Below, piece by piece: positions 13,186-60,930 of a DNA stretch of 64,000 nucleotides (positions are counted from its first letter, which is position 1; each line of letters begins with the position of its first letter). The position numbers were made by a program, and so were the translations under genes. The DNA comes from Nymphaea colorata (taxonomy: Eukaryota; Streptophyta; Magnoliopsida; Nymphaeales; Nymphaeaceae): positions 9,324,417 to 9,388,416 of the forward strand of contig NC_045149.1 in the NCBI RefSeq assembly GCF_008831285.2, in the 5' to 3' direction. The notes under the pieces are model-generated. The model did no database searches. It saw only the letters and a list, made by a program, of their open reading frames with translations, and was not told the origin of the DNA.

Positions 13186-15481
13186 GGAGTTTGTGTGGGG
13201 CATGGGTGGAAAAATGAAAGGAGAGCAAGCTGTTCTACGCCCCAGTTTTCCTTTTCTTTTCCCTTTCCTCTTTCTTTCCAGTTTACTCTCTCAGTCCTTT
13301 TTTCCTTGTTGTTAAAGACTTGCATGCCTTCAGTTTTGTTCTACCGTTCAAGTCATAGAGCTACGCCTATAGTTTCTTTACTGTATGTGTTTTCATCTAC
13401 TTATTAATAAGAAAATTAAGTTTGCCTCCTTCAAGGAATTACAAGAAAAAATAATCCACGTGTTAGGACTTAGGTCTTGGGACTGAGGAGTTGGGTCCTC
13501 CAAAAGCACGGTGGACCAAATCTATGAAGAAACCGTTAACATGAGTACAAAATTTAAACTGTTAAAAGTTACTCCTGCTCCTGCACGTCCATGTTCGTGC
13601 ATGTGCTGTGAAGTTAAACTTTAATCTATTCATCAGATTGTTAGACGATGGAATAAACAGGTGGAAACGACGGCACTAGACAAAATTGTCGTTTTTTACT
13701 TTCTAGAGGAAGCGTCTAGCTATGCACTCTAAAAAAACAATCTTTCTCTGCTCTTCCAAAGAGGGAAACAATAAATCCTGACAGTGAATAAACATCTCCA
13801 AGAAAATAATACACTTTTTGAGGAGTGTTTCTTATCATTTGAAGTAAACAATTTTATCTGAATGCCTATAGATCAAATCCTGAAAGTATGACCTGATATA
13901 CTCTGCTCCATAAGAGACTTGTTCTAATTCGACTGCAACGTGCAGAAGGTTCTTCTAGGATTATCAAAAAATCGAAGTTTTACAAAGCATTGCATTTTTT
14001 TCACCGCTAGATTGACAATATTAGTGCTTTTGATCCAGAACGCATCTATTTACCGAAAACAATCTGTCAACAGAAGGATGCGATAGACACTTTGCATTAG
14101 GAAGGGCAGGCAAGCATGATATTGTACCTTGCATCATGTTCGGACCACGGACCAATATTTCACCCAACTGATTAGGAGGCAGCGGCTTCATCTTCTCCAC
14201 ATCAACGATTTTACACTCAATCCCTGAAGCCAGACCTCCAGAAGAACCATAACGGCGAGATCCTCCCCCTGAAACTTCCAGAGAAACAATGGCACATGAC
14301 TCTGTCAAACCATAGCCCTGCAATGAACACAAAAAATCAACATGCAAAACTGAGGGATTAAAGAATACCGAAGAACCGTTGGATCGAAACGATGGTGTAT
14401 TGAACAATGTGATAAGACAACATGAAGAAAAATGAATCGCAAAGGAAAAAAGAAAGGGAAAACTTTACGAACTCTGCACCTGAAGAATCTCAGCCCAAGG
14501 AACAATTTTCGAGCATTCCTCCATGACATCCTTTGCTAGAGGTGCAGCGCCAGTACCAATCCTTCTCAACGACGAGAGATCATACTTGCGGGTGACGTCC
14601 TGTTTCGCCAAAAGGACCATGATCGGCGGCACGATGTAGAGGTGCGTGATCCTGTACTTCTCCACCGTCCTCAGCATATCCTCCAAATCGAACCTGCTCA
14701 TGCTGATGACAGCGTTCCCAATCTGCAGCTGCGCGTACGAGATGGTCGAGAGGCCGTAGACGTGGAACATGGGCAGAACGCACAGCATAACATAATGCAT
14801 TTCTCCCTTCTCCATCTGCTCAGACGAAACCATCAAAGCAATAGCCACGAAGTTTCTGTGAGTAAGAATCACCCCCTTGCTAGTTCCCGTCGTGCCGGAG
14901 GAATACAGGAGCACAGCGGTGTCGTTCTGCTGAATGACGACTGCCGGCGGGGCTCTGCCGGATCCCATCTTCACCAATTCATCGAAACCGGTGGTACCCA
15001 CGTCAGGAACGATACCAGTGTTGGGTCTCCCCAGCAGAACGGCAGGCAAACCCAAGCCTCTAACCTTCTCCCAGAGAGCGGGAATGGTGACCACGAACTT
15101 GGAGGACGAATCGAGGGCCTGCTTGGCAACCTCCGAGGAGGTGTAGAGCGGATTGACGGTGGTAACGATGGCTCCGAGAGACAGAACGCCGAAGAAGCAG
15201 ATGAGGAACTGAGGGGAGTTGGGGGCGACGATGAGAACGACGTCGCCCTTCCTGACGCCCAGCTGAGAGAAGCCGCTGGCGGCTCTGGCGACGATGGTCC
15301 TGAAGTCATTGAAGGAGAAGGACTCTCCGGTGTCGGCATCGGCCAACGCGAGCTTGTCGGGGTAGGAGGAGGAGTTCCTGAACAAGAAGGAGACGATGTT
15401 GGTGTTGGGGTCGGAAGGTAGGACGAGAGGTGGTCTCAGCGACCTGTAGATACCATCCTTACCATATCCACTTCTCTCCAT
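6855..15481 (-). CDS. 4CLL7: 4-coumarate:CoA ligase-like 7 (4CLL7-type acyl-CoA synthetase), copy 1
   Basis: Six exons on the minus strand: 15481-14480, 14317-14128, 9353-9208, 7485-7418, 7292-7190 and 6968-6855. All introns are GT-AG and the joined frame is 1623 nt (540 aa plus stop TAA). It is an ANL-family adenylate-forming enzyme that activates a carboxylate through acyl-AMP and transfers it to CoA. Visible motifs are the P-loop [14 protein letters not shown] (about residues 191-204), QGYGLTES at the exon 1/2 junction, GEILVRG (about 386), TGD (about 418), [11 protein letters not shown] (about 434-444) and SGKILRR with the catalytic Lys (about 526). The N-terminus [17 protein letters not shown] and overall layout resemble Arabidopsis At4g05160 (4CL-like 7), which is peroxisomal and reported to activate fatty acids and jasmonate precursors. 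The C-terminal SNL is PTS1-like. Intron 2 is 4.8 kb and carries repeats. Substrate is not deducible; it is unlikely to be a true lignin 4CL. Confidence 0.93.
10300..10620 (+). pseudogene. Unrecognised coding-like fragment inside intron 2, antisense to the ligase
   Basis: One plus-strand frame reads a Ser/Thr/Gln-rich stretch ([17 protein letters not shown], then [16 protein letters not shown]), interrupted by stops. It is followed by GAG|GTAAAT and, 29 nt later, TTTCAG|GG, which would make an unusually short intron. The wording looks like decayed protein sequence rather than noise. I do not recognise the family. A captured gene fragment inserted into the intron is one explanation. Confidence 0.3.
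11100..11275 (+). pseudogene. Unrecognised exon-like open stretch inside intron 2
   Basis: A plus-strand frame reads [19 protein letters not shown] and then [15 protein letters not shown] before a GTGTGTAAC donor-like site. That is one likely membrane helix followed by a basic segment. It may belong to the same unknown fragment as 10300-10620. No motif identifies it, and chance cannot be excluded. Confidence 0.25.
12024..12172. repeat. Stem-loop repeat, copy 2
   Basis: This is the second copy of the repeat at 6050-6218, with the same order of AAACCAGG/GTCATCCAAAC blocks and the closing CATCCAAACAGGCCC. It sits inside intron 2 of the minus-strand ligase gene, and no counterpart was noticed in intron 2 of the other copy. 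Confidence 0.6.
13130..13181. repeat. (CT)n microsatellite in ligase intron 2
   Basis: An uninterrupted CT dinucleotide run of about 52 nt. Confidence 0.95.
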
Positions 15482-16979
15482 GGCCCTTTCACTCTATCTA
15501 TTTTCTCTAGGATAGTGATGGCTAACGCCCGCAAGATTTTTCGCCGGAAAGTGGCTCGCAAGCTGACTTTTAGTTTTCAAGCACCCGTACTTATCACCCT
15601 AAACGATGCTTACGAAACAGACAAGCCAACCGTATTACCCTGCACCACCAGAAGCAACATATAAACCTTAGAAAGAATAAAAAAGCAACCGAAGCACTGC
15701 AACCGAATACAACTGTTCTCTATCGGCAGTTTAGTACCAGGAAGAAGTCAAACAAACAAAAAAAAAGCACTAAATATGTATGTGATTAACAAATTTTAAT
15801 TTGTACTTAAAGCAGCGACCCGGTGTAGCGCTGCTCCATATAATTGGATACAGATCTACCGAAATTTAATATATAAATTTAATGTTTTAGATTGAACGAG
15901 AAACCCCAACATATCTATATGCCCCTGGCTACAATAATGATCTTTGTTATGTTGCGGATGCTTATTAGGCAGATAGATAAGGGTGATAAGCAAAAAGTAA
16001 CCAAATTCAATACTTACAACCCTGAAAGGGAACCTCATTGGTTAGCTCATGTACTTAGCAAAATACTTAACAAAACCAAGAGAACAACAAATCCAGAAAT
16101 GGTTCCAACTTCAAACAGACTCTACAGCGAACATTAGCAGTTAGCAGAAGGCTGAAGATAGATGTCAGCAGAGACTATGACAGCAACTGCAAAAAATTTT
16201 GTACACAAAATAGAAACAAAATTTTCTATGTTTATCTGAACTGCCTAATAAAAGAAGCCACATTAGTTTATATCATAACAAAGTATGCTCAATCGCTTCA
16301 CAAAGTACACCAGCAATAATGTGTTCCTATAACTTTTCAAGTTTTCATTTAAGTAATGATTTACATACTAACAGAATTATCAGTTCTTTGTGGTGGATGT
16401 TCATGACATGGATCAATTTCTACCAGTTTATAGACAGGCATGAGCATACAACCATGATATTTCACCAACAAAAAGACGAGCATAGGTACAAGTTTCCCAA
16501 AAGAGAAAAGTCAGGGCTCCTATTTCAAATGGCTTATGCATAATATTTTGCAACCTTGGTTGCTCATGGTCTGGACTCTGGAACCTCCTTTATACATTTC
16601 TTAAATTGCATTTACACAGCACTTGATAAATATCATATTCCAAAAAAAAAAACAACTAATATATATATATATATAGTCCTTTGTTACGCAGGTGCCAGCA
16701 GTGGGTTTTGCTCGGCTGGCATGGGCCGTCCACATGGATGATGGATGGCCCACTTTTTAGTAAAGAAAAAAAAGTTGTTCACATCTCTTTTTGTATCTAG
16801 AGCCTACTTTCTATTTCCACACACACAAAATTAGAAAGCCAACAAAAACTTGTAAATCCTAAATAAAATCTAAAGTTGTCTAACTGAATTAAAAGAAAGA
16901 ATGCAAGTAAAACAAAGAGGGAACAACTCAGCTGCATTCTCTAAAAGAAATTTTTTGAAAAATAGTTACATTATTAAGG
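15482..16979. other. 5' flank of 4CLL7-like copy 1; no gene recognised
   Basis: This is AT-rich sequence upstream of the minus-strand ATG. No TATA box at a convincing distance was identified, and the flank does not resemble that of the second copy, so the duplication boundary probably lies close to the start codon. A short (AT)n occurs at 16660-16675. Small open frames here carry no motif. Confidence 0.5.
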
Positions 16980-27524: not shown

Positions 27525-28241
27525 AATATCTTGGCTGCTGAACCCTTTTACAACCACAAGCATTTGGATAAATTTGGGAAACGTGCTTAATTTGGATAAA
27601 AGCAATGCTTTCGAGCAAAAAACAGTTTTATGAGAAAATATATTCCATTGTTTTTTTATTTAATTAAATTTATTTGTTAATTTAATTAATGTATATCTTG
27701 TACGATTTGATATTTTGTAATAACATGCAACACTTCTTAAGAAATAATAAAAAAGGCGCCCGTTTTGCATCAAGCCACCTGAATTTAACGCAAAACGGTG
27801 CAGTTGAATGGAATATCTTCAAACCTCAGTGCGCCTTTTTGATATCATAAAAAATTTGTGCTTTTCCATGAAAGTTCAACTTAAAGTAAGCCAGGTAGAT
27901 TTTTACACGGCCGACAAAATTTATTTGTTTAGGTATCGGTTGCCCCCAACTATTTTGTTTATTTACATACCACCCGCTAATCATTTATTTGTTTATGAAT
28001 GGTACCCCTCAACAATCATATTATATATTTGATGGGTCTAAAATTTGTTAAAGTAGTGCTCCTCATCAGTTCTATGATATATATGTTCCAAATCAAACAT
28101 ATTGACATTCATACCCTTAAATAGGTCATTTTTTTTATTCCACAATTCTTAAAAGAGCTACAACACCCTTCCCCTTCTCCTTGCCCGTCCCCTAGGTCAC
28201 AGAGCTTCGAGACTTTTTACGGTTCAAGGTAGAGCACACTA

Positions 28242-28361: not shown

Positions 28362-29203
28362 AGATGTGGTGGTCCTCAAATAAGTCATTGAATGATTGGA
28401 TTTTGTCACTAAATAAACCAATTATTCAAAGTAGATTATGGAAGGATTATATATCTCTAATATTCAGTCCATCATTGCGCAGAATCAATCAGTAAATTTG
28501 GTATAATTAGCCGCTCTTTTTCAAGTATCAATAATATTGTCACAATGATTAATATCGACACTAAGATAACATTTATAAGAGCTTACACTCCACTATCATT
28601 TGATAGAACACGATCAACCAGTTCCTATAAAACCTATCGCTAGAAAGTGCAAGGCTAAGCGGAGGAAAAATGAGACCCATTTGTCATAATCACCAAGGAA
28701 TATCAATCTCTCTGCTAACAGGATCAATTTATTGAAGTCATAGACTCATAATCCATTAGATTCGCTTTTTTTTTTTTTTAAATATCAACTACTGATCATA
28801 AGTAAACCTTAAAATCATTCAATCTTTTTAGAAGGAGAGTCATCGTTTGGTAAACGATTCATTTGATCAGGGAAGCCATTTTTTGGCAAACGATCATGTA
28901 ATTTGAAAGATATCACTGTTCTAAACCGACACGTACAGTCCCCAAGAATCCAGAAAAGAGTTCCAGATGGTCGGCCCGGAGGCCGGCACTGGTGAGCCAT
29001 CGAATTTTTGAAAAGAAGGTGGGCAGAGAAAGTGATGGCGACCATCGAATTTATGTGAAAGAGAGTCGGCAGAGATTCCCGACCCTTCTTCCACCTTGGT
29101 ACGAAGGAAGCCATGAGATCGGTACTCACCACGTCCCAGCGAAGCCTCGCGACCCGTGAATCAACACCGGCCACAGGCATCCGGTGGCCCCGAAAATGGC
29201 CGT

Positions 29204-29242
29204 CACGTGACCTGCACGTGGAGTTCATCTTCCCGTCACGTG
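29204..29242 (+). promoter_or_regulatory. Three G-box (CACGTG) elements upstream of MIR530
   Basis: CACGTG occurs at 29204-29209, 29215-29220 and 29237-29242, within 39 nt and about 75-110 nt upstream of the TATA box. G-boxes bind bHLH factors such as PIFs and some bZIPs. In rice, a PIF-like factor (OsPIL15) is reported to act on MIR530 through G-boxes, so the cluster fits light or phytochrome control; that link is inference here. Confidence 0.75.
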
Positions 29243-29311
29243 AGATCAATGTGCTGCTCGGGATTGATTCTCCACCGACGTACGTACGTCGCCAACGCAC
29301 CATCTCCGCTT

Positions 29312-29320
29312 CTATATATA
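29312..29320 (+). promoter_or_regulatory. TATA box of MIR530
   Basis: CTATATATA lies in a CT-rich context, about 70 nt before the predicted mature arm. This predicts a transcription start near 29345-29355 and a short leader before the hairpin, as is usual for plant MIR genes. Confidence 0.75.
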
Positions 29321-29370
29321 CTCCGCCCTCCTCTCTGCAACTTTCAGGCTAGAGAGAGAGATTGAGCGAG

Positions 29371-29503
29371 GGTTGGTGCAAGCACCTGCATTTGCACCTG
29401 CACCATGCATCGGGAGGCTCTGATCATCTGTAGAACTCCAGCAGAGTTCGCTCGTCATGATCATGAAGTGGTGCAGGTGCTCTTGCAGATGATTGCATCC
29501 CTA
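29371..29503 (+). ncRNA. MIR530: MIR530 microRNA precursor hairpin
   Basis: The 5' arm at 29387-29407 begins TGCATTTGCACCTGCACC, the sequence of the conserved plant miR530-5p. The 3' arm at 29470-29490 (GGTGCAGGTGCTCTTGCAGA) pairs with it: 11 continuous base pairs (29394-29404 with 29470-29480), a symmetric 3-nt internal loop (TTT opposite TCT), TGCA with TGCA, and further pairing down to about 29375/29499 with few mismatches. The roughly 60-nt terminal region contains its own helices (TGATCAT with ATGATCA; GAACTC with GAGTTC). A TATA box and G-boxes lie upstream at promoter distance. miR530 guides AGO1 cleavage of target mRNAs; in rice it targets a PLUS3-domain gene and affects panicle and grain size. 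No such target lies in this window. Confidence 0.9.
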
Positions 29504-30340
29504 CCCTCTTCGAGTTTCGAGTTTTCTTCTGCCACAACCATCGCCATGCCCCTGATGATGGCGATGGGTGAGATGCTCTAACATGCATCACAGGCTCGCA
29601 TGCATATTGTTCAGAGTTCGAAAGCATGTTTTTCGAGGTTATATCGTTTGGTACTGTTGTTGTGATATGAAAACCTTTTTAATCGTTGGCTTTTATGAGA
29701 AAATTATGATCTCATGAATCTGTTGATATCGATATGATCTTCTTGTGATGGGGTTTATGATTTCTACTTCGTTTGAGTTTCAGGTTCTTGCAGTCTGGGC
29801 GTGAGTATCGGATGAACAGATGCATCATCATCAATCCCCTCGGCAAGTCCTCCGATTCGTGGTCGTATTCAGGTGTGGAGCTAAGATTCTATCTTTAGGA
29901 GACGAACCATCACGCAATGAATATAACTTTTCAAATTTTTCCGTGAGGCCAACAACGATTTTTCAGAGCGCAAGCTCACATTTTCGAGACATTCAGTGAA
30001 AAAAAAAAATTATTTCCCTGCACGTATTGAACGTCTGCTCCGACCGAACACGGGAACATGGGGCCGAACATATAATCTGCTTCCTACATGTATATTTAGA
30101 CGGAAGATATAATCTGCATCTTCGGGACTTGTCTGCTGAGCGTCGTCTTGTAAAAGCGTTGACAAATCAACGGTTTCTTTTTCAGCTGATGTTGACATAG
30201 CGTCATCGATTTGGAACGACTAGCGTCGGGATGCTCTCAGAGAAACGACCGCTTTTTTCTTCTCTTTTTTTTATTCATGGACGTCATTGTCTTTCTTTTT
30301 TTCTTTTTTTTCCCAATCTTGTTCTTTCAATAATGGGTGC
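29504..30340 (+). other. Downstream part of the probable MIR530 primary transcript; no protein gene
   Basis: Sequence after the hairpin has no supported open frame. Plant pri-miRNAs often extend several hundred nucleotides and may be spliced, but no polyadenylation site can be fixed by eye. Confidence 0.4.
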
Positions 30341-38399: not shown

Positions 38400-41300
38400 T
38401 CATGTTGTCACACATAAGCTTCATAGACTCCCTCATTTCAATCTTCATATCTTTGAGCAATGTTTTTATCCATATCAACTCACATGTACATGAAGCCATG
38501 GCCCTATATTCAGTCTCTACGATCGATCGAGCCACAACAGACTATTTTTTGCTCTTTCAAGTTACCAAGTTTCCTCCGACAAACATACAATATCCTGATG
38601 TAGACTTTCAGCTGTTTGGATCCCCTACCCAGTCAACATCGCAATATCCAGTTACATTTATTTTCTGATCTCGTTTCATCAAGATTCCTTGCCCTGGAGT
38701 TCCTTTTAAATATCTCAAGATCCTGTGAACAGCTTCGACATGTCTTGACCTCGGGTTGTGCATAAATTGACTTACCAGGCTGACAGCATAGGTGATATCC
38801 GATCCAATGATGGTCAAGTATATGTGCTTTCCAACCAACTTTTGATAACTTTGAATGTTTTCGATGTCTTCCCCTTCTTCTTTCTTCAATTTGCAGTTCA
38901 TTTCAAGGGGCGTGTCTGCAACCTTGGCACCCAGGCAACCTGTTTCCTTCAAATTGCTGATTTATATAAGTTTTGACTTGGGTCATGAAATCTTTGTCAT
39001 CACCTGTCAATATGATGTCATCTACATAAACAAGCAAAATGGTTACTTTTGAAGATTGAATAGCAACAAACATTGTATAATCTGCTACGCTTAAATCCAA
39101 TTTTAACCAATGCTTCACTTAGGCTTGAAAACCAAGCTCGGGGGGACTGCTTAAGGCCATAAAGGACCTTTTTTAGTTTGCACACATACCATTTTTCATG
39201 TTTTGTATGTCTTGTGGAACTTGCATGTAAACTTCTTCATTGAGCTCTCCATGAAGAAATGCATTCTTGACATCAAGTTGTGCTAGTTTCTACCGCTTGA
39301 TGGATGCTACTGATAGAAGAATCCTTATTGTATTCATCTTAACGACAAGAGTGAAGGTCTCATCGTAGTCTACTCCTTCGATTTGAGTAAAACCCTTAGC
39401 AACGAGACGAGCTTTGTATCTTTCTTTAGAACCATCACTATGATATTTTATCTTGTATACCCACTTACATCCGACGACTCTCTTCCCTTCGGGCAACGGC
39501 ACTAGCTCCCAAGTTTTGTTCTTCTTTAATGTGGATAGCTCTTCTTGCATAGCAACCTGCCAATTTCGATTTGTGCTTGCTTCCTCGTAGTTTTTAGGCT
39601 CATGATGAGCGTAGGTATTGAGAATATAGGACCGGTATGGTTTGGATAAGGTATCAAATGTATTGTAGTTTTCTATGGAATGAACGTGTTGGGTTGATAG
39701 ATAGGTATAGAACTCTTTTAGTTTTGGTGGTGGTTTAGAGGGACGAGTTGATCTTCTAAGTATTGGTTCAAGAGTTTGGTTTTGGAGTGACACCGGTGGC
39801 TGAGAATTGCTATCTTTGTTTGAATTACTATCTTGATTTGGATTTTCTAAGATGATAGGTTCACTAGATTGCTGGTTTTGGTTCTGGGTTTGAATAACTG
39901 GAGCTTGAAAAACATCAACAAGGGGAAGGGAAACAACAGGATCAGTGGATGCAATAGAGGAAGTGGGAGCAGTAAGAACGGTACCTTGATCTTGCGTGTG
40001 AGTCTCCCCCTGACTCGGTGCCTCATAGAAAGGTTCACTTTCAAAAAATTTTACATTCGGAGTCACAAAAAACTTTCTTGATCTTGGTTCAAAGCATCTA
40101 TAGCTCTCTTCTTGCTAGAATACCCAAGAAAAACACATTTCAAGGCTCGTTTCTCAAGTTTGTTTTGGAATTTTGTTTGTATATGCACAAAATATTTGTA
40201 CCCAAAAATTCTTAAATGCTTAACAGAAATCGATCTTTGAAGTAAAACTTCAAGGAGAACTTGATTTTTAATGCTAGAACTTGGAACTCTATTGGCAAGA
40301 TAACAAGCAGTACCAATCGCTTCTGCCCAAAACATTTGAGGTACATTCATGTGAATCATGAGAGCACGAGCAATAGTAAAGAGCTGTCTATTTTTCCTTT
40401 CTGACACCCCATTTTGTTGGGGAGTACCAGAACATGTAAGTTGTGGTTGAATCCCCTTTTTGTTCATGAATTCTTCAAACTGTTGATTCACATATTCAAC
40501 CTCCCCCCCATTATCAGATCAGAGCTTCTTAATTTTTGTACCATACTGAGTGTAAACAAGATTGTAATAGTCTTGAAAGATCTTAAAAACTTCACTTTTA
40601 TTTCTAAAAAAAAATATCTATGACATGCGAGATTTATCTTCAATGAAAGACACATAGTACATGTATCTCGTATAGGATTCCACAGGAGCTGGCCCTCACA
40701 CGTCAGAATGCACTAAATCAAAAAATTTGTGGATCGTTCAGTAGATGATTGAAATGGCAGTCTAGTAGACTCTGAATATTTATAAGCATCACAAGAGTGT
40801 TTGTCAGTGGTGATATTAGGAACATGCATCTTCAAGCTTCTGTCTGAAATATGCCCAAGTCGTGCATGCACATTTGGTATTCTTGCCTCTTCTTTTCCAT
40901 ATTAGAATGTATGAGAAAACTAGCTACGGGAGTTTCCATCACATACAGCCTGTTTTGTTCTCGTCATCTACCAATCTCCCTCTTCATTTCTAGATCCTAA
41001 AATATCACATTCTTGAGAGAAAAAACGGCCAGACAATTATAAGTCTTTGTCAACTTACTAACTGACATCAAGCTAGTGGAGAGATTAGGAACATAAAGAA
41101 CTGAAGATGATTTGTTTTCAAAGAATGAAAATTTTCCAGTTCCATCAACAACAATATGTGATCTGTCGGCTTTGAATACCGGTTTTTTGTTCATGCAATT
41201 AATTGTAGTTAACCTTGATGCATCATTCATCCTATGATCAGTTGCACCCGTATCAACAACCCATATAGAATTACTAGAATGAGTGCAGAGAGTAAGATTG
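38400..41300 (-). pseudogene. Pol of the full-length copia element (protease-integrase-RT-RNase H, broken)
   Basis: Protease motif WVVDTGATDH lies near 41245. GAG-pre-integrase and the integrase N-part (40996-40620) are degenerate. The integrase core has GTPQQNGVSERKNR (40491-40063). A linker follows, with RRSTRPSKPPPKLKEFY. RT begins with VGCKWVYKIKYHSDGS and KARLVAKGFTQ (40066-39290), and its catalytic box [10 protein letters not shown] is at 39118-38903. RNase H starts SYQKLVGKHIYLT and has GYCDVDWVGDP (38952-38608). The intact catalytic Asp pairs in RT contrast with several frameshifts between domains. Confidence 0.9.
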
Positions 41301-46930: not shown

Positions 46931-47300
46931 GTATCTGTACTTGAAACCGACAGAGGTGTGTAGGTAGAGAATACCTAAGGGCATGAGACAACTCTTTTAG
47001 AATAACTTAGAAAAATAGTCCTGTAATTAGAGAAGGGGTGCCTCCTTAATAATGGGGCCCTAATGACCAGGCATGGGCGACTGTTTATGAAAAACTCATG
47101 TCTTTCCAAAGTCATAAGACCATGTATGGGGGCTGATGTCTGTCTACTGCCGAACGGTCAAGGAAGTTGGTGACTTGATGACAATGGATCCGGCCACCGA
47201 AGCCCTGGTGAATAGCAGCTGTAACTATAACGATCCTAAGGTAGAAAAATTCCTTGTCGGGTAAGTTTCGACGCGCAAGAAAGGCGTAGCCCAATGACAT
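46931..47300 (+). pseudogene. Nuclear copy of plastid 23S rRNA (NUPT), decayed
   Basis: Signature blocks of plastid large-subunit rRNA occur in order: ACTTGAAACCGACAGAGGTG, GGTAGAGAATACCTA, GGCGACTGTTTA, AAGACCATGTATGGGGGCTG, GGTCAAGGAAGTTGGTGAC, GTAACTATAACGATCCTAAG, AAATTCCTTGTCGGGTAAGT and GAAAGGCGTA. These span the domain IV/V region. The CATGTATGGGGGCTGA wording is plastid-type rather than mitochondrial. Numerous C-to-T and G-to-A changes indicate an old, methylation-decayed nuclear insertion. It is not a functional rRNA gene. Confidence 0.88.
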
Positions 47301-47339
47301 AACACAGTTATGAGAATGGAATTGGTGACAGACACATCT

Positions 47340-49335
47340 TTTACATGTCTATCAGCCTGACCATGTATGCAATACTTCTAGAAGAAGCATGAAATTTTCT
47401 TCTTCTTGTCAAGGAGGCCTACAATAAAAATCTCTATCTTCCTTCCACGTAGCAACCAACTATTGCCTCGAAGACTCGACATAAGTAGACAATCATGGAG
47501 ATGGAGCTCCTTCCACGACATCTCTGTAAGACAGAAAAGTCACCGGAGGGGAGGGAAATTCAGATCAAGATGTCAATACCTAAGTCTTTAAAGCATTGAT
47601 TCTCAATACGTTATAAGATTTTATTTACATGTGCAGTAAAAAAAAGCTTTTCCATGTTTTTGAAGTTGATTGTTGGATCTTTCAACATAAAAACCAATGA
47701 TGTTTGATTCATTTGGTGAAAAAGCACTCATGGTTGGGCTTTTTTGTATTCACTTTTCAGAACATCATAATCATCTTGTTGTTTACATCCACACATTACC
47801 CTAAAGTAAGGGTAGTTATGTAATTTTATTTAAAAAAATATGTTAACAATTTCCTTCTTTGGCCTCGAGGAGCACAATGTAGCTAGTTTGATTGGAAACT
47901 CGGTGAGAGCTCGATTGTCAATTTGATTCTTGTATGCACTATACTTTTATACTACAAACAGTGCAAACAGTGCTCGTATAGTCGACCAAGATCTAGAAAC
48001 AACCCTAAATTTTGGGGGGAGAGAGAAAGAGAGAATAACTTTAGCCCTTCTTTAGGCGGCTTCCCACTCATTAACAATTTTCTTCTTCCAATTGCTTAAC
48101 AACTTACCTTTTCCTTATCAAGATCCTAAAGAGTGGTGAATAGATTCAAAGTGAACAATAAATATGGAATATATATAGCCGAAAAGGCAAGACCTTCAAA
48201 GAAAAAATAGATACATTTTAATAGGTAATTTTTTTTCTTTCAAAATGAGTCATCCCGTTCTTGAAACTCTGCTTTAGAAAATACTAATGTCCCTAACTAA
48301 ATTCCCCAACTTCCACCTTCATTAAAAAAAAATTGAAGGAAAAAATATTAGTCCCCATGGAAAAGAACTTTCCAGTTTTATATTTACTAGAAAAATCAAT
48401 CTTTCCTGGAAAGAAAATGAAAGTGTCCGACAGTTTCTAACAAAAGTTGAAAGAAGAATATTCCCTTTCTACCATTACTTAAAAAGAAAAGGTTTAATGT
48501 TGAGGAAGGGGAAAAAAAAGGAAAAAATGAAAGTGACAGACCAACTTTTGACAGTAAAAGGTACATTTCGAGCTATTTTTTGACAGATTTCCATAATAAA
48601 ATGAGGTCTTTAGAACTTTATGATCATGTCGCTTTCTTCTAATGTTTAAAGTTGATTTTCTGCTAAGAAAACATTTAAAATTTATATTAGCCGCCTTTCA
48701 CATGGTTTTGTGGACCCATTCAGGCTTTAAAAATTTAAATTATCTTTATTAAATATATCGGATCGTATGGCTGTGCATTGCCCTCCTTCTTTTCTTCATG
48801 GGCGGGCTTGACTGTGCTTGGGAAGGCAAACTTTGCTACTTTTTTTTCTTTTTCATGGCCAAATAGTTAGTTAGAAAAGCAATTCTCGCGAATTAATTGT
48901 GGAAGAACTGTGGAAAAATCAACGGACGCTTATAAAGAACTCTAAAGCCTGTGGACAAAGAAAAGAAAAAAACTCCAAGCAATATGATAGCCTCTCACTA
49001 GCCCCAAGTTTAACAAATTCATTCATGAAAGAGAGAGAATAAGAATCTAACGCTTGAATCGATCATAAACAAAGAAGGTTGCGACAAAAGTGCAATTAAA
49101 CACCAAATTGAAAAGTGAAAACCACCCATTGCGTGTGATACGTGTAAACGTGTTGAAAAAATGAGAGGCTATGAAGTGGACGAGAGCCTCGCGATCGCGA
49201 TGGAAGAACGATGACGACTGCATGAGAAGTGCAGGTTCATTCCTCTCCAAACGCGATCCTCTTCTTGCTTCCTTCTTCCTTCCGCTTCACTCGCAAAGAA
49301 ATCCCAGTTAAGCAGCGTCAGTCATCACCAGAGTC
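47340..49335. other. 5' flank of 4CLL7-like copy 2; no gene recognised
   Basis: About 2 kb of AT-rich intergenic DNA. Just before the ATG is a pyrimidine-rich stretch (49250-49290) typical of a plant 5' leader, but no convincing TATA box was found. It shows no similarity to the flank of copy 1. Confidence 0.5.
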
Positions 49336-52335
49336 ATGGAGAGAAGTGGATATGGGAAGGATGGTATCTACAGGTCGCTGAGACCACCTCTCGTCCTTCC
49401 TTCCGACCCCAACACCAACATGGTCTCCTTCTTGTTCAGGAACTCCTCTTCCTACCTCGACAAGCTCGCTTTGGCCGATGCCGACACCGGAGAATGCTTC
49501 TCCTTCAACGACTTCAGGACCATCGTCCCCAGAGTCGCCAGCGGCTTCTCTCTTCTGGGCGTCAGGAAGGGCGACGTCGTGCTCATCGTCGCCCCTAACT
49601 CCCCTCAGTTCCTCATCTGCTTCTTCGGCGTTCTGTCTCTCGGAGCCATCGTTACCACCGCCAATCCGCTCTACACCTCCTCGGAGATTGCCAAGCAGGC
49701 CCTTGACGCGTCCTCCAAGTTCGTGGTCACCATTCCCGCTCTCTGGGAGAATGTTAGAGGCTTGGGTCTGCCTGCCGTTATGCTGGGGAGACCCGACGCT
49801 GGTATCGTTTCTGACGTGGGTACCACCGGTTTCGATGAATTGGTGAAGATGGGATCCGGCAGAGCGCCGCCGGCCGTCGTCGTCCGACAGAACGACACCG
49901 CCGTGCTTCTGTATTCCTCCGGCACTACTGGGACTAGCAAGGGGGTGATTCTTACTCACCGGAACTTCATATCTGCTGCTCTGATGGCCTCGTCCGAACA
50001 GATAGTGAAGGGAGAAATGCATCGCGTTGTGCTGTGCGTTCTGCCCATGTTCCACGTCTACGGCCTTTCTATCATCTCGTTCGCGCAGCTGCAGATTGGG
50101 AACGCCGTCATCAGCATGAGCAGGTTCGCTTTGGAGGATTTTCTAAGGGCGGTGGAGAAGTACAGGATCACGCACCTCTACATCGTGCCGCCCATCATGA
50201 TCCTTTTGGCGAAACAGAAGGTTACTCGCAAGTTTGATCTCTCGTCGCTGAGGGGGATTACTAGTGGCGCCGCACCTCTAGGGAAGGATGTAATGGAGGA
50301 ATGCTCGAAAGTTGTTCCTTCGGCTGAAATTTTGCAGGTACAGTCATCAAGTTTGGTTTTCTTTTTCTCCTTTGTAGATTCACTTTTTCTTCTTGATGAC
50401 ATATTGCTTACGGATTTTTTAAGTTATCAACGACTCGATCCGACCTTCTGTCGTTAAATCCTCTATTTGCGTGTTGGTATTTTGGGTTCTTCGCAGGGGT
50501 ATGGTTTGACAGAGTCATGTGGCATTGTTTCAGTTGAATTTCCAGAGCAAGGATTTAGCCGTCATGGTTCTTCTGGAGGTCTGGTTTCAGGGGTTGAGTG
50601 TAGAATCGTTGATGTAGAGAAGATGAAGCCTCTGCCTCCTAAGCAATTGGGTGAAATATGGATTCGTGGTCCAAACATGATGCAAGGTACAGTATCATGC
50701 TCGCCCGCCCTTCCTAATGCATATTGTCAGTCGCATCATTATGTTGTTAGACTGTTTTTGGGAAATAGAGGCACTGTGGATCGTAGACACTAACAGGGTT
50801 AATCTACCGGTGAAAAAAATGCAATGCTTTTCACGCCATCAATTTGTTCAAAGTCCTAAAAGAACCTTCTTCACGTTGCAGTTCTACTAGAACATGTTTC
50901 TGTTTGAGCGGAGTATATAGATCATATTTTTGGGACTTGATCTATAGGCATTCAGATAGAACCTTTTGATTGAAACGATAAAGCACCCCTCAAAGGTCTG
51001 TTATTTTCTTTGAGATATTTATTCACTGCTAAGGATATGCTGATTTTCTCTTTGCGAGAGCAAAGAAAAGACAGAATACAATTGTTGAAGGGCAGTACTA
51101 GACGCCTCCTCTGGAAAGTGGAAAACTACAATTTTGACCAATTCCATCGTTTCTATCTGTGGACCCTTTCATCTAGTGATTTGTAACCTAAAGTTTAACT
51201 TCACAGCAGATGCATGAACGTGGACATCCAGGAGCCTGAGCAACCTAACTTTTGTATCCATGTTATGCAACTGTTTCTTCATAAATTTGGTCCTCCATGC
51301 TTTTGGAAGGCCCACACTCCTTACTCCTAATATGTAAGATTATTTTTGCTCATAAGTCCTTAAAGAATTTTCCAATCAACAAGTGGCTGCTCAAACTGGA
51401 AGCTGCGAAATTTGGAAAAGACTTGATCTTTCTGTTCAAACTGCGGCTCCATATTTCACACTTGTAAACCAAAGTCCTATTTTTCCTTGACGATCTAGCA
51501 TGTTGACAAAAGCACTAGGTATTTACCTCTACTGGGGACTAGGGGCTCTAGGCAGTGCACCCACAACAAGGTAAAAGGGAAAAATCGAACATGGTAAAAC
51601 TCATTAAGGAAAGTGTACTTTGTTCTTAATAAAAAGATATAATATACATGTAAATATATCAGAACATGCATTGTGGAACTAAATCAACAAAATTTAAGAA
51701 GTGATCTAACAAATTCGACTATCCATTAACTGGAAAAGAAATTAAAGATTTGAGTTATAAAAGATGAAAAATATGTATTTTCCCTAGACAGACAAGGTGG
51801 GCCAGTTGTTCTATCTAAGCTTAGGTGGCCAGGATTGCCTGGCTCAGGGGATCTTTACCGTATAAGGATCTATAGGATTCTCCAACTCTGCTGGCATAAT
51901 TGTTAGAGACGAGGGCACACATTTTCTGATTTCATTGTCCTTATTACAATTGCATCCTGTTCTTCACGTGTACAAAATCTAAGCTTCTATCCTGCTTGTA
52001 AGGGAAAGGGATCACACGTGTTATGCACCTGGGTGAGTGATAATGTCTCTCAACCCAAGTGGTTTCCACATGTAAAATAAATGAAGGAAAATTTTGAGCT
52101 GTTGTCATTGTTCAGCTTGAGTTTCTGCTATATTCTCATCTAGTAGCATTTAATTTCCTTCATATCATAATTACTAGACACATGAACTCGCCTGGAATGG
52201 CACATCCCCATGTCAACATGGCTGGGAACTGGTGTGTGTATAGGAAACACTCTGGACACGGCAAAGTGATAGTTGTCTTTTCTTGTAGATGGTACTTTGT
52301 TTATTACTTTAAATTATATATATATATATTACTTT

Positions 52336-57599: not shown

Positions 57600-60500
57600 T
57601 TATGCTCATTACATCATTTCAAGAAATCTCCAATGAGAAGAGCGTTAGTAAACATATTAGCTGCTTGATATTTAGAGGAAACGTGGATTATGCTAATGAT
57701 TCTTTCTTGTATAAAGTCTCGAACACAACGGCAATCCACTTCAATGTGTTTCGTCTTCTCATGAAAGACAGAGTTATTTGCAATGTAGGTAGCAGTTTTG
57801 TTATCACAATACATCTTTATAGGAAGTTTCACTGAAATTCTCAATTCTAGAAGCACTGATTTGACCTATGACATTTCAATCGTCGTTTGAGCTATAGCTT
57901 ATATTCAGACTCAGCACTGGATCTAGCAACCACATTTTGTTTCTTGCTCCCTATCAATAAAAACGCAAAAACCTGAAATAGATCTCCTATCAGTTAATGA
58001 CCTGCATAATCAGCATCACTATATGCTTCTATATCGATACATTCTCTTTTTTTGAACCATAACCTCTTTTTTGGAGCTGATTTCAAGTATTTTATCACTA
58101 TTAAAGTAGCCTTCCTAACGAGCTTTCCAAAGTTTCTCCATAAATTGACTGAGCTTATTCACAACAAAGCTGATGTCTGGACGAGTGATGGTCAAATATA
58201 AAAGTTTTCCTATCAGAGATATGTAAGAATGAGTCAAAAGCCTCTGATATCATCATGCATATGAATTTGAGGACTCATAGGAAGTGTAGCAGGTTTGGCT
58301 CCCAATACCCTTGTTTCTTGTAAAAGATCAAGAACATATTTCCTTTGAAACATCACAATCCCTTTACTAATACGAGCCACTTCAATACCAAGGAAATATC
58401 AAAGTTGACCAAGATTTTTTGTGATAAAGTGTTTCTGTAAGAACTCTTTTACCTGAGCTATCTCTTGAGTACTTTCTTCAATGAAGACAATATCATCAAT
58501 ATATACAATCAATATTACTATACCAAAAGTCCATCGCTTGATAAACAACGAGCGATCAAGTTAGGATCTTTGAAATCCACATTTAGAGGCATCCTCACTT
58601 AGATTATGGAACCATGCACGGAGACTTTGTTTAAGTCCATAGATAGCCTTTTTGTGTTTGCATACCTTATAACATTCTCTCGGTCGTTCAAAACTTGGTG
58701 GTTGTTGCATATAGCCTGTTTCAGAGAGATCACCATATAGAAATGTATTTTTCACATCAAGCTAAAAAATGGGTCAATTCTGCTAAATTGCGAGAGATAT
58801 AATTAGGCGAATAGTACCTAACCTTGTCACAGACGAAAATGTCTCGAAGAAGTCCACCACATAAGTGTGTGTATAGCCTTTAGCCAAAAGATGAGCTTTG
58901 AATCGTTCTACAGACCCATCACAATGATATTTATGGTGAATACCCATTTTGAGCCGACAACATCACAATTCAACGATAGGTCTACCAAGTCCCAAGTCTC
59001 CCTAAAAAGAAGAGCATCCATTTCTTCCTGCATAGCGTGCTTCCATCATGAATCTAATAAGGCTTGATGGTGAGAGGTCGAAATAGTATGACTAGTCATA
59101 GCTCAGTCAAACTGCACCAAACTTGTTTTCAAATGGTCCATAAAAACCGAGTTAGAAATCGGATGCCTTGTGCATTGTCGCGGGCTCTTGCGAATAGCAA
59201 TAGGTAGATCATCTGCAGAATAGTCATCATTTCTTTATGAGTCAGCCTTATCATTAGAACTTACCTCATAAGAAGACATTGGTGGGCAATTAGGAGAGAG
59301 ACCTTAACGCTGGGTATAGACTATTGGAGGATCAAGATAACAATCACCTGACAATGGTGGAGAGGACGAGATCGACTCAAGTGATACTGGGGGAATAGGA
59401 AGAGGAACAAACACGAGAAGCTCAGACACAGTGGTACTTGGAGTGGAAAAATAAAGACAAGACTCAAAGAATATAGCATTTGTACTGACAATCTCTTTCT
59501 TGGTATGAGGATCAAAACTTCGATAGCCTTTTTGATTGGCAGAATATCCAATAAACACACATTTGACAGCTTGAGCAGCAAATTTGTTTTTGTTTGAGCC
59601 CAAGATGTATGCAAAACAAGTGCATCCAACTACTTTGGGAGGTATATGAAATAATGGTCGATTTAGATATAATATTTGAATGGAGATTCATTCTTGGATG
59701 GCAGACAGGGGCAATCTATTGATGAGATAACATGCGTAAGAATAATATCACCCTAAAAATAGCAAGCATATGAGTGTGCAACATGAGGGTACATGCCACA
59801 TTTAGAAGCTGTCGATGTTTGCGTTCAGCAACACCATTTTGTTGAGATGTGTAGGGACATGTATATTGTGGTTGAATCTCATGATTGACATAAAATTAGA
59901 GTAGAACTGAAATTTAAATTCAAGAGCATTATCAGTGCGAATATTTTTGACAACACCACCAAACTGAGTTTTTATTTTATTGACAAATTTCTGAAGAATA
60001 TAGATGACTTTAGACCTGTCCCGTGACAAAAATACCCAACTGACTGTAGTAAAATCATCAACCAAAACAAGGTAATACAAAAAACGTGAACGACAGGAAA
60101 CACGACTTGGATCCCAAACATCAACATGCAGAAGATCAAAGGGACTTTGACTCGATGGACTCTAACTTGAAGGGAAACTATTACGTGTATGCTTGCCTAA
60201 CTGGCATGCATCACATAAAAATGACTTTGACGCATGTATATCTAGAAAAATGCGACGAAGCTTGGACACAAAAGGATGGCCCAGTCTAAGATATCACTGC
60301 AAAGGAGAAGGCTTCGACGTGAAAGAGGATGCAGCAACATCTACAGGGACAAAGAGGAAATAGAGTCCCTCCCTTTCATGGCCGCTACCAATCTTTCCAG
60401 TTTGTAAGTCCTGAAAAGAACATGAACCAAGATAAAAAAAAATGACTCTATATTGTAAATCTCTAGTCAATCGCTTAACAGATAACAAGTTAACAGGAAA

Positions 60501-60930
60501 TTGAGGAGCATATTGCACATGTGTAATGGTGCCAAAAGCTATGAGATAGATATCACCGCTGCCCAGAATAGGGGACAACTTGCCATCAGCCAACCCGACG
60601 TGCTGTGATGTAGTGAACCTAGTAAATGATAAAAACATTTGTGGCTGGTTACAACAATGCCTGGATGCTCTTGAGTCAATCATCCATATCATACTTGGGT
60701 CACTGGTAGGGGCACCAATAGAGGGAAGAAAGTCTATAGTAGTTGTCCTGGTTGAGGCAGGAGTTGACCTCTAAGCAAGAACCATATCATATTCTTTCTT
60801 GCTTAAGTTGAGATAATGCAATGGAGGTATAGGAGAACATGTAGGAGACTCAACCATAACATCTGTAGACTGTGACGAAGTTGCAGTAGATGAAGAAGAC
60901 CCTTCTTACCTACTATTGTTAGCCATAAAA
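57600..60930 (-). pseudogene. Pol remnant of the gag-deleted copia element
   Basis: Protease WMIDSRASRH (60692 onward) has Arg where active elements have Gly (DSGA), so the catalytic loop is damaged. GAG-pre-integrase follows (LLSVKRLTRDLQYRVIF). Integrase has YLVLVDDFTTVSWVF and IRTDNALEF (60080-59802), then FIGYSANQKGYR (59603-59304). RT has NTFLYGDLSETGYMQQPPSF and AIYGLKQSLRAW (58755-58561), with the catalytic box VYIDDI near 58500. RNase H has YCDNKTATYIANN and KHIEVDCRCVRDFIQ (57856-57614). All pieces are separated by stops or frameshifts. Confidence 0.9.

Follow-up and report, generated by a model that had tools for sequence, protein, structure and literature searches.

A MIR530 hairpin with a predicted mature/star duplex

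The window (the whole 64-kb stretch of Nymphaea colorata DNA analysed here) holds a MIR530 precursor hairpin preceded by a TATA box and a cluster of three G-boxes. In the genome searched, a peroxidase motif is present at the printed coordinates of all four genes checked from a published N. colorata peroxidase table (4 of 94 entries; two in C13, two in C11). The outer stem of the hairpin spans positions 29368–29508 on the + strand. The 151-nt sequence 29360–29510, which the earlier note had marked out for folding, forms a strong hairpin of -68.8 kcal/mol (shuffles: -49.0 kcal/mol, sd 4.0; z -4.9), a stability reached by 0 of 200 dinucleotide shuffles. Folding 195 nt, with downstream sequence included, gave z values of -3.1 and -2.8 in two runs.

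The mature body of MIR530, UGCAUUUGCACCUGCACC, is found exactly at 29387–29404, within the 5' arm, where the conserved miR530 body reads TGCATTTGCACCTGCACC. The predicted mature miR530-5p (21 nt, 29387–29407, +) matches 18 of 21 bases of pepper can-miR530 and, counted from 29387, 18 of 20 bases of osa-miR530-5p (rice sequence as given in the available text of PMC12250125), which bears out the earlier reading of a conserved miR530 on this arm. The computed fold also gives the 11 + 4 bp pairing claimed for the two arms. An outer helix of 4 bp (29387–29390 with 29484–29487) and an inner one of 11 bp (29394–29404 with 29470–29480) flank a single symmetric 3x3 internal loop (29391–29393 versus 29481–29483), and the inner end is made of A29405–T29469 followed by T29406–G29468. 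The predicted star, miR530-3p (21 nt, 29469–29489, +), lies where it had been expected, at about 29470–29490. Plant miRNAs are recognised by a duplex of about 21 nt with 2-nt 3' overhangs, few mismatches, and no large asymmetric bulge. The duplex found here has 2-nt 3' overhangs and three unpaired positions, all of them in the symmetric loop.

A default Rfam scan of the window did not list MIR530 among its matches. The MIR530 model RF01005 aligns over its whole length on both strands, with 30.4 bits (E = 0.00096) on the + strand and 37.1 bits (E = 2.3e-5) on the - strand, both far below the curated gathering score of 85 bits. The - strand outscores the + strand because the hairpin is nearly palindromic, and the Rfam score therefore does not decide between them; the + strand is indicated by the TATA box and by the exact match to the mature body. 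We name the locus MIR530 for its exact mature body and its duplex, despite a score under the Rfam cut-off.

The promoter carries a dense G-box cluster

The TATA box, TATATATA, occupies 29313–29320 (+), at the promoter distance that the earlier note had given it. Transcription would be expected to start near 29345, about 23 nt before the hairpin. The three CACGTG boxes lie at 29204–29209, 29215–29220, and 29237–29242 (no strand assigned), some 105–140 bp upstream of the expected start, and their span of 29204–29242 agrees with the 39 nt first reported for them. G-boxes in the promoter, a sequence mark expected of a PIF-regulated MIR530, are present, three in 39 nt. The 1.5 kb upstream contain no further G-box, no CACATG-type box, and a single W-box core, at 28102. 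Taken together, the hairpin, the mature body, the TATA box, and the three CACGTG boxes give good support to the initial description of the locus as MIR530 with a compact promoter rich in G-boxes.

We compared the cluster with several null expectations. The whole window contains 11 CACGTG, against a shuffle mean of 4.8, and 2 of 100 shuffles reach that number. We also generated 200,000 sequences of 301 nt from a first-order Markov model of the local composition: 37 hold at least three G-boxes and none puts three within 39 nt; the latter arrangement is also absent from all 2,000 simulated 64-kb windows. Across the genome (407.8 Mb), triple G-boxes with gaps of at most 30 nt have 26 placements in 22 distinct places, and 9 of the 26 placements span 39 nt or less. 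The reversed-pattern control has 49 such placements genome-wide, more than the 26 of CACGTG, so the rarity of the cluster is not special to this motif. What counts is that one of just 22 genomic places falls at promoter distance of MIR530. A given 240-bp stretch would hold a cluster with a chance of about 1e-5, or of 0.07% if all clusters sat in promoters among the 31,580 annotated genes. With only 22 such places in the genome, a chance origin of the cluster is unlikely. With spacings of 11 and 22 bp, the three boxes would look out from the same side of the helix, possibly by chance.

The locus is probably the only MIR530 copy with a hairpin

The exact miR530 16-mer occurs at four places in the genome: the window locus, C6, C1, and C7. 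Allowing up to two mismatches to the mature 18-mer, we found 179 places, against 9 for a reversed-pattern control, an excess that stems at least in part from an interspersed repeat (described below). We folded the best 30 of these 179 near-matches, including all 11 with at most one mismatch. Among these best 30, the window locus alone shows both a compactly paired site and a fold more stable than its shuffles. In the other 29, either compact site pairing is absent or the fold is no better than shuffles: four loci (L033, L035, L044, L048) pair 12–14 of 21 bases compactly with z between -0.4 and +0.3, and in the five folds at z -3 or below, just 3–10 bases of the site are paired. A whole-genome scan with RF01005 returned no match and missed the window locus itself, and is hence uninformative on copy number. 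From the folded set, the window locus is probably the sole MIR530 copy with a hairpin in the N. colorata genome. One locus, L023, which is the antisense of the TZP-type site discussed in the next section, was considered as a second MIR530 and rejected; it pairs 18 of 21 bases, but with scattered partners and z of about 0.1.

A TZP-type gene is the candidate target

On C6, the exact 16-mer match runs antisense to a gene. The miR530-complementary site (C6:9161970–9161990) has mismatches at miRNA positions 20 and 21 alone and a score of 2. It lies outside an 808-aa open frame, 739 nt before it. The frame encodes two CCHC-type knuckles (Pfam zf-CCHC, 19.8 bits, below the cut-off of 20.8), and four exons joined by GT-AG rules encode a C-terminal Plus-3 domain (E = 1.2e-13, over the cut-off). 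This predicted architecture, tandem zinc-knuckle/Plus-3, is of TZP type, the known target family of miR530. Acceptor- and donor-like bases flanking the site suggest that it forms part of a short leader exon and is transcribed. The site is moreover similar to one portion of the interspersed repeat, from which it could be derived.

A genome search for Plus-3 domains identified four places, on C1, C2, C4, and C5; it missed the gene on C6 because its domain is split over exons. In about 19 kb around each of the places on C1, C2, and C4, we found no miR530 site scoring below 5.5, and the short stretch scanned at the C5 locus contains none up to 5.5. The two remaining exact 16-mer matches were rejected as targets. 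The match on C1 was set aside because its flanks are like the interspersed repeat, and the one on C7 lies within no recognised gene and has retrotransposon-like frames nearby (by eye).

A proposed model for light control of miR530

We propose, with a probability of about 0.6, that the locus is a MIR530 gene processed by a Dicer-like enzyme, that its product acts on the TZP-type gene, and that the G-box cluster provides PIF-type control by light. The hairpin, the conserved mature sequence, the rare G-box cluster, and the complementary site upstream of a TZP-type gene are observed; transcription, processing, transcription and cutting of the target site, the binding factor, and control by light are inferred. 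RNA polymerase II would start near 29345 off the TATA box and transcribe a short leader followed by the hairpin. Dicer-like 1 would release the 21-nt miR530-5p, which would guide Argonaute to the leader site of the TZP-type mRNA, and this mRNA would be cut. The three G-boxes would act in control, through the binding of a bHLH or bZIP protein that is most likely of PIF type. Such binding would make the output of miR530 depend on whether the plant is in light or in the dark, which is what has been reported in rice. Control of miR530 by a PIF-type light factor is plausible in the water lily.

The closest precedent is rice osa-MIR530 under OsPIL15, which shares with our locus 18 of 20 mature bases and G-boxes in the promoter, and whose target is a TZP homologue, as the candidate target here would be (available text of PMC8435866, PMC11858971, and PMC4448008). 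PIL15 activates the rice miR530 promoter but not its G-box mutant, with ChIP support, as described in the available text of PMC11858971. Part of the idea of such control has already been published, for rice, Kalanchoe, and pineapple. The primary rice paper is Sun et al. 2020, whose result we take as relayed in PMC8435866 and PMC11858971. Rice miR530, which this PIF-like factor switches on, reduces grain yield, and its reported target TZP is a light-signalling protein. In the rice phyB mutant, miR530 goes up, and its target is a TZP homologue (PMC4448008, available text). The layouts differ: rice has two adjacent G-boxes and a separate one in 2 kb (PMC11858971, in the part available), whereas the water lily has three within 39 nt, near the TATA box.

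A second precedent is the miR530-TZP module of Kalanchoe marnieriana, which is aimed at tandem zinc-knuckle/Plus-3 genes and is rhythmic and light-linked. According to the available text of PMC8233840, Kalanchoe miR530 has a peak that shifts under constant light and targets two TZPs, in contrast with the one candidate of the water lily; that text describes neither promoter nor G-box. The same source cites diel expression of miR530 in pineapple and already proposes a conserved miR530-TZP module downstream of light. In pepper, TZP is reported, in the source as available, as a predicted miR530 target.

Alternative explanations

The low Rfam score would also fit a MIR530 copy that has decayed or is not transcribed, or a palindrome that arose by chance in the GGTGC-rich interspersed repeat, and mature near-matches are indeed common in that repeat (179, against 9 in the control). 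We nevertheless regard this as very improbable: the mature body matches exactly over 18 bases, the conserved duplex has the right overhangs, the TATA box is intact, the G-box cluster is present, and a comparable duplex is found in 0 of the 29 other folded near-matches. If the gene is genuine, the next question is which factor reads its promoter. Factors of the bZIP, MYC, and BZR types bind CACGTG too, and the motif alone does not name its factor. The cluster might then answer ABA-linked bZIPs, HY5, MYC, or BZR1/BES1 and place miR530 under stress or hormone control, not mainly under light. The drought response of miR530 reported in Kalanchoe (PMC8233840) and in banana, and the control of rice miR530 by WRKY36 via W-boxes (PMC11858971), fit this explanation, all as given in the available parts of these sources. 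We consider it rather unlikely, because the G-box activator tested on rice miR530 is PIL15 (PMC11858971, available text), miR530 rises in the rice phyB mutant (PMC4448008, available text), and a single W-box core (28102) is present in the 1.5 kb upstream.

The G-boxes of the water lily and rice could also have arisen independently at a genuine MIR530, by convergence, instead of being an old angiosperm trait. Two lineages are compared, the layout in rice is different, and six-base sites arise easily; we thus treat convergence as a real possibility, if one that we place somewhat short of even odds. Against it, rhythmic or light-linked miR530 is reported in rice, Kalanchoe, and pineapple, as inheritance predicts (PMC8233840 and PMC4448008, in the parts available).

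How old is the light link?

Among flowering plants, the ANA grade diverged earliest, and water lilies are part of it. Both this position of the host and the genome-wide rarity of such clusters strengthen the evolutionary inference. The water-lily promoter is consistent with an ancient light link, and one promoter cannot establish that link. We hold only tentatively, and with more doubt than belief, that phytochrome/PIF-linked G-box control of miR530 with a TZP-type target predates the split between water lilies and later angiosperms; it would then be an ancient circuit in which light acts, by way of a microRNA, on how much of a light-signalling protein is present. The packed G-boxes at the water-lily MIR530 provide a deep comparison point, from which the age of light control becomes directly testable.

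The miR530/1030 family, in which the available text of PMC5426797 unites fern and moss members with seed-plant miR530, is reported there in moss, a liverwort, a fern, and seed plants. It is reported missing in lycophytes (PMC5569507, available text), and one table of PMC5002175 shows no miR530 for Amborella. Because this is an old land-plant family, a water-lily member is expected. The water-lily sequence has 17 of 19 bases in common with one fern form, which differs in having TGCATCTGCACC where the water lily has TGCATTTGCACC and in beginning two bases earlier (PMC5426797, in the part available). In the literature covered, a single paper, on poplar, mentions both miR530 and Nymphaea, and the locus may already stand in miRBase or PmiREN. 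The contribution of this MIR530 locus is its promoter, which comes from an early-diverging angiosperm and has its G-boxes exceptionally densely clustered; the gene itself is ordinary.

The interspersed repeat and the surroundings of the locus

The interspersed repeat occurs at L026–L029, L032, L033, and other near-match loci, and reads roughly CTATGTCACATGGGTG..GGTGCAGGTGCAGATGCA..AAAAATTTGGGTGC. It includes an 18-mer that is complementary to miR530 save for one G:U pair. Six exact copies of this 18-mer exist genome-wide, and by eye the flanks of five look like the repeat. These copies, if transcribed, could be decoys for miR530, and the TZP-type site may be what is left of such a copy.

On each side of the MIR530 locus lies a piece of an AMP-binding (4-coumarate-CoA-ligase-like) gene, at 14465–15493 (-) and 49312–50457 (+). 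With 921 of 1,009 aligned bases identical, the two form an inverted duplication. A bacterial-type 23S rRNA fragment (47004–47301, +; Rfam E = 7.6e-45) is probably inserted plastid or mitochondrial DNA. The window also contains pieces of Copia-type retrotransposons, with RVT_2, SH3-like, and Pol_BBD domains, at 39290–40515 (-) and 60294–60770 (-).
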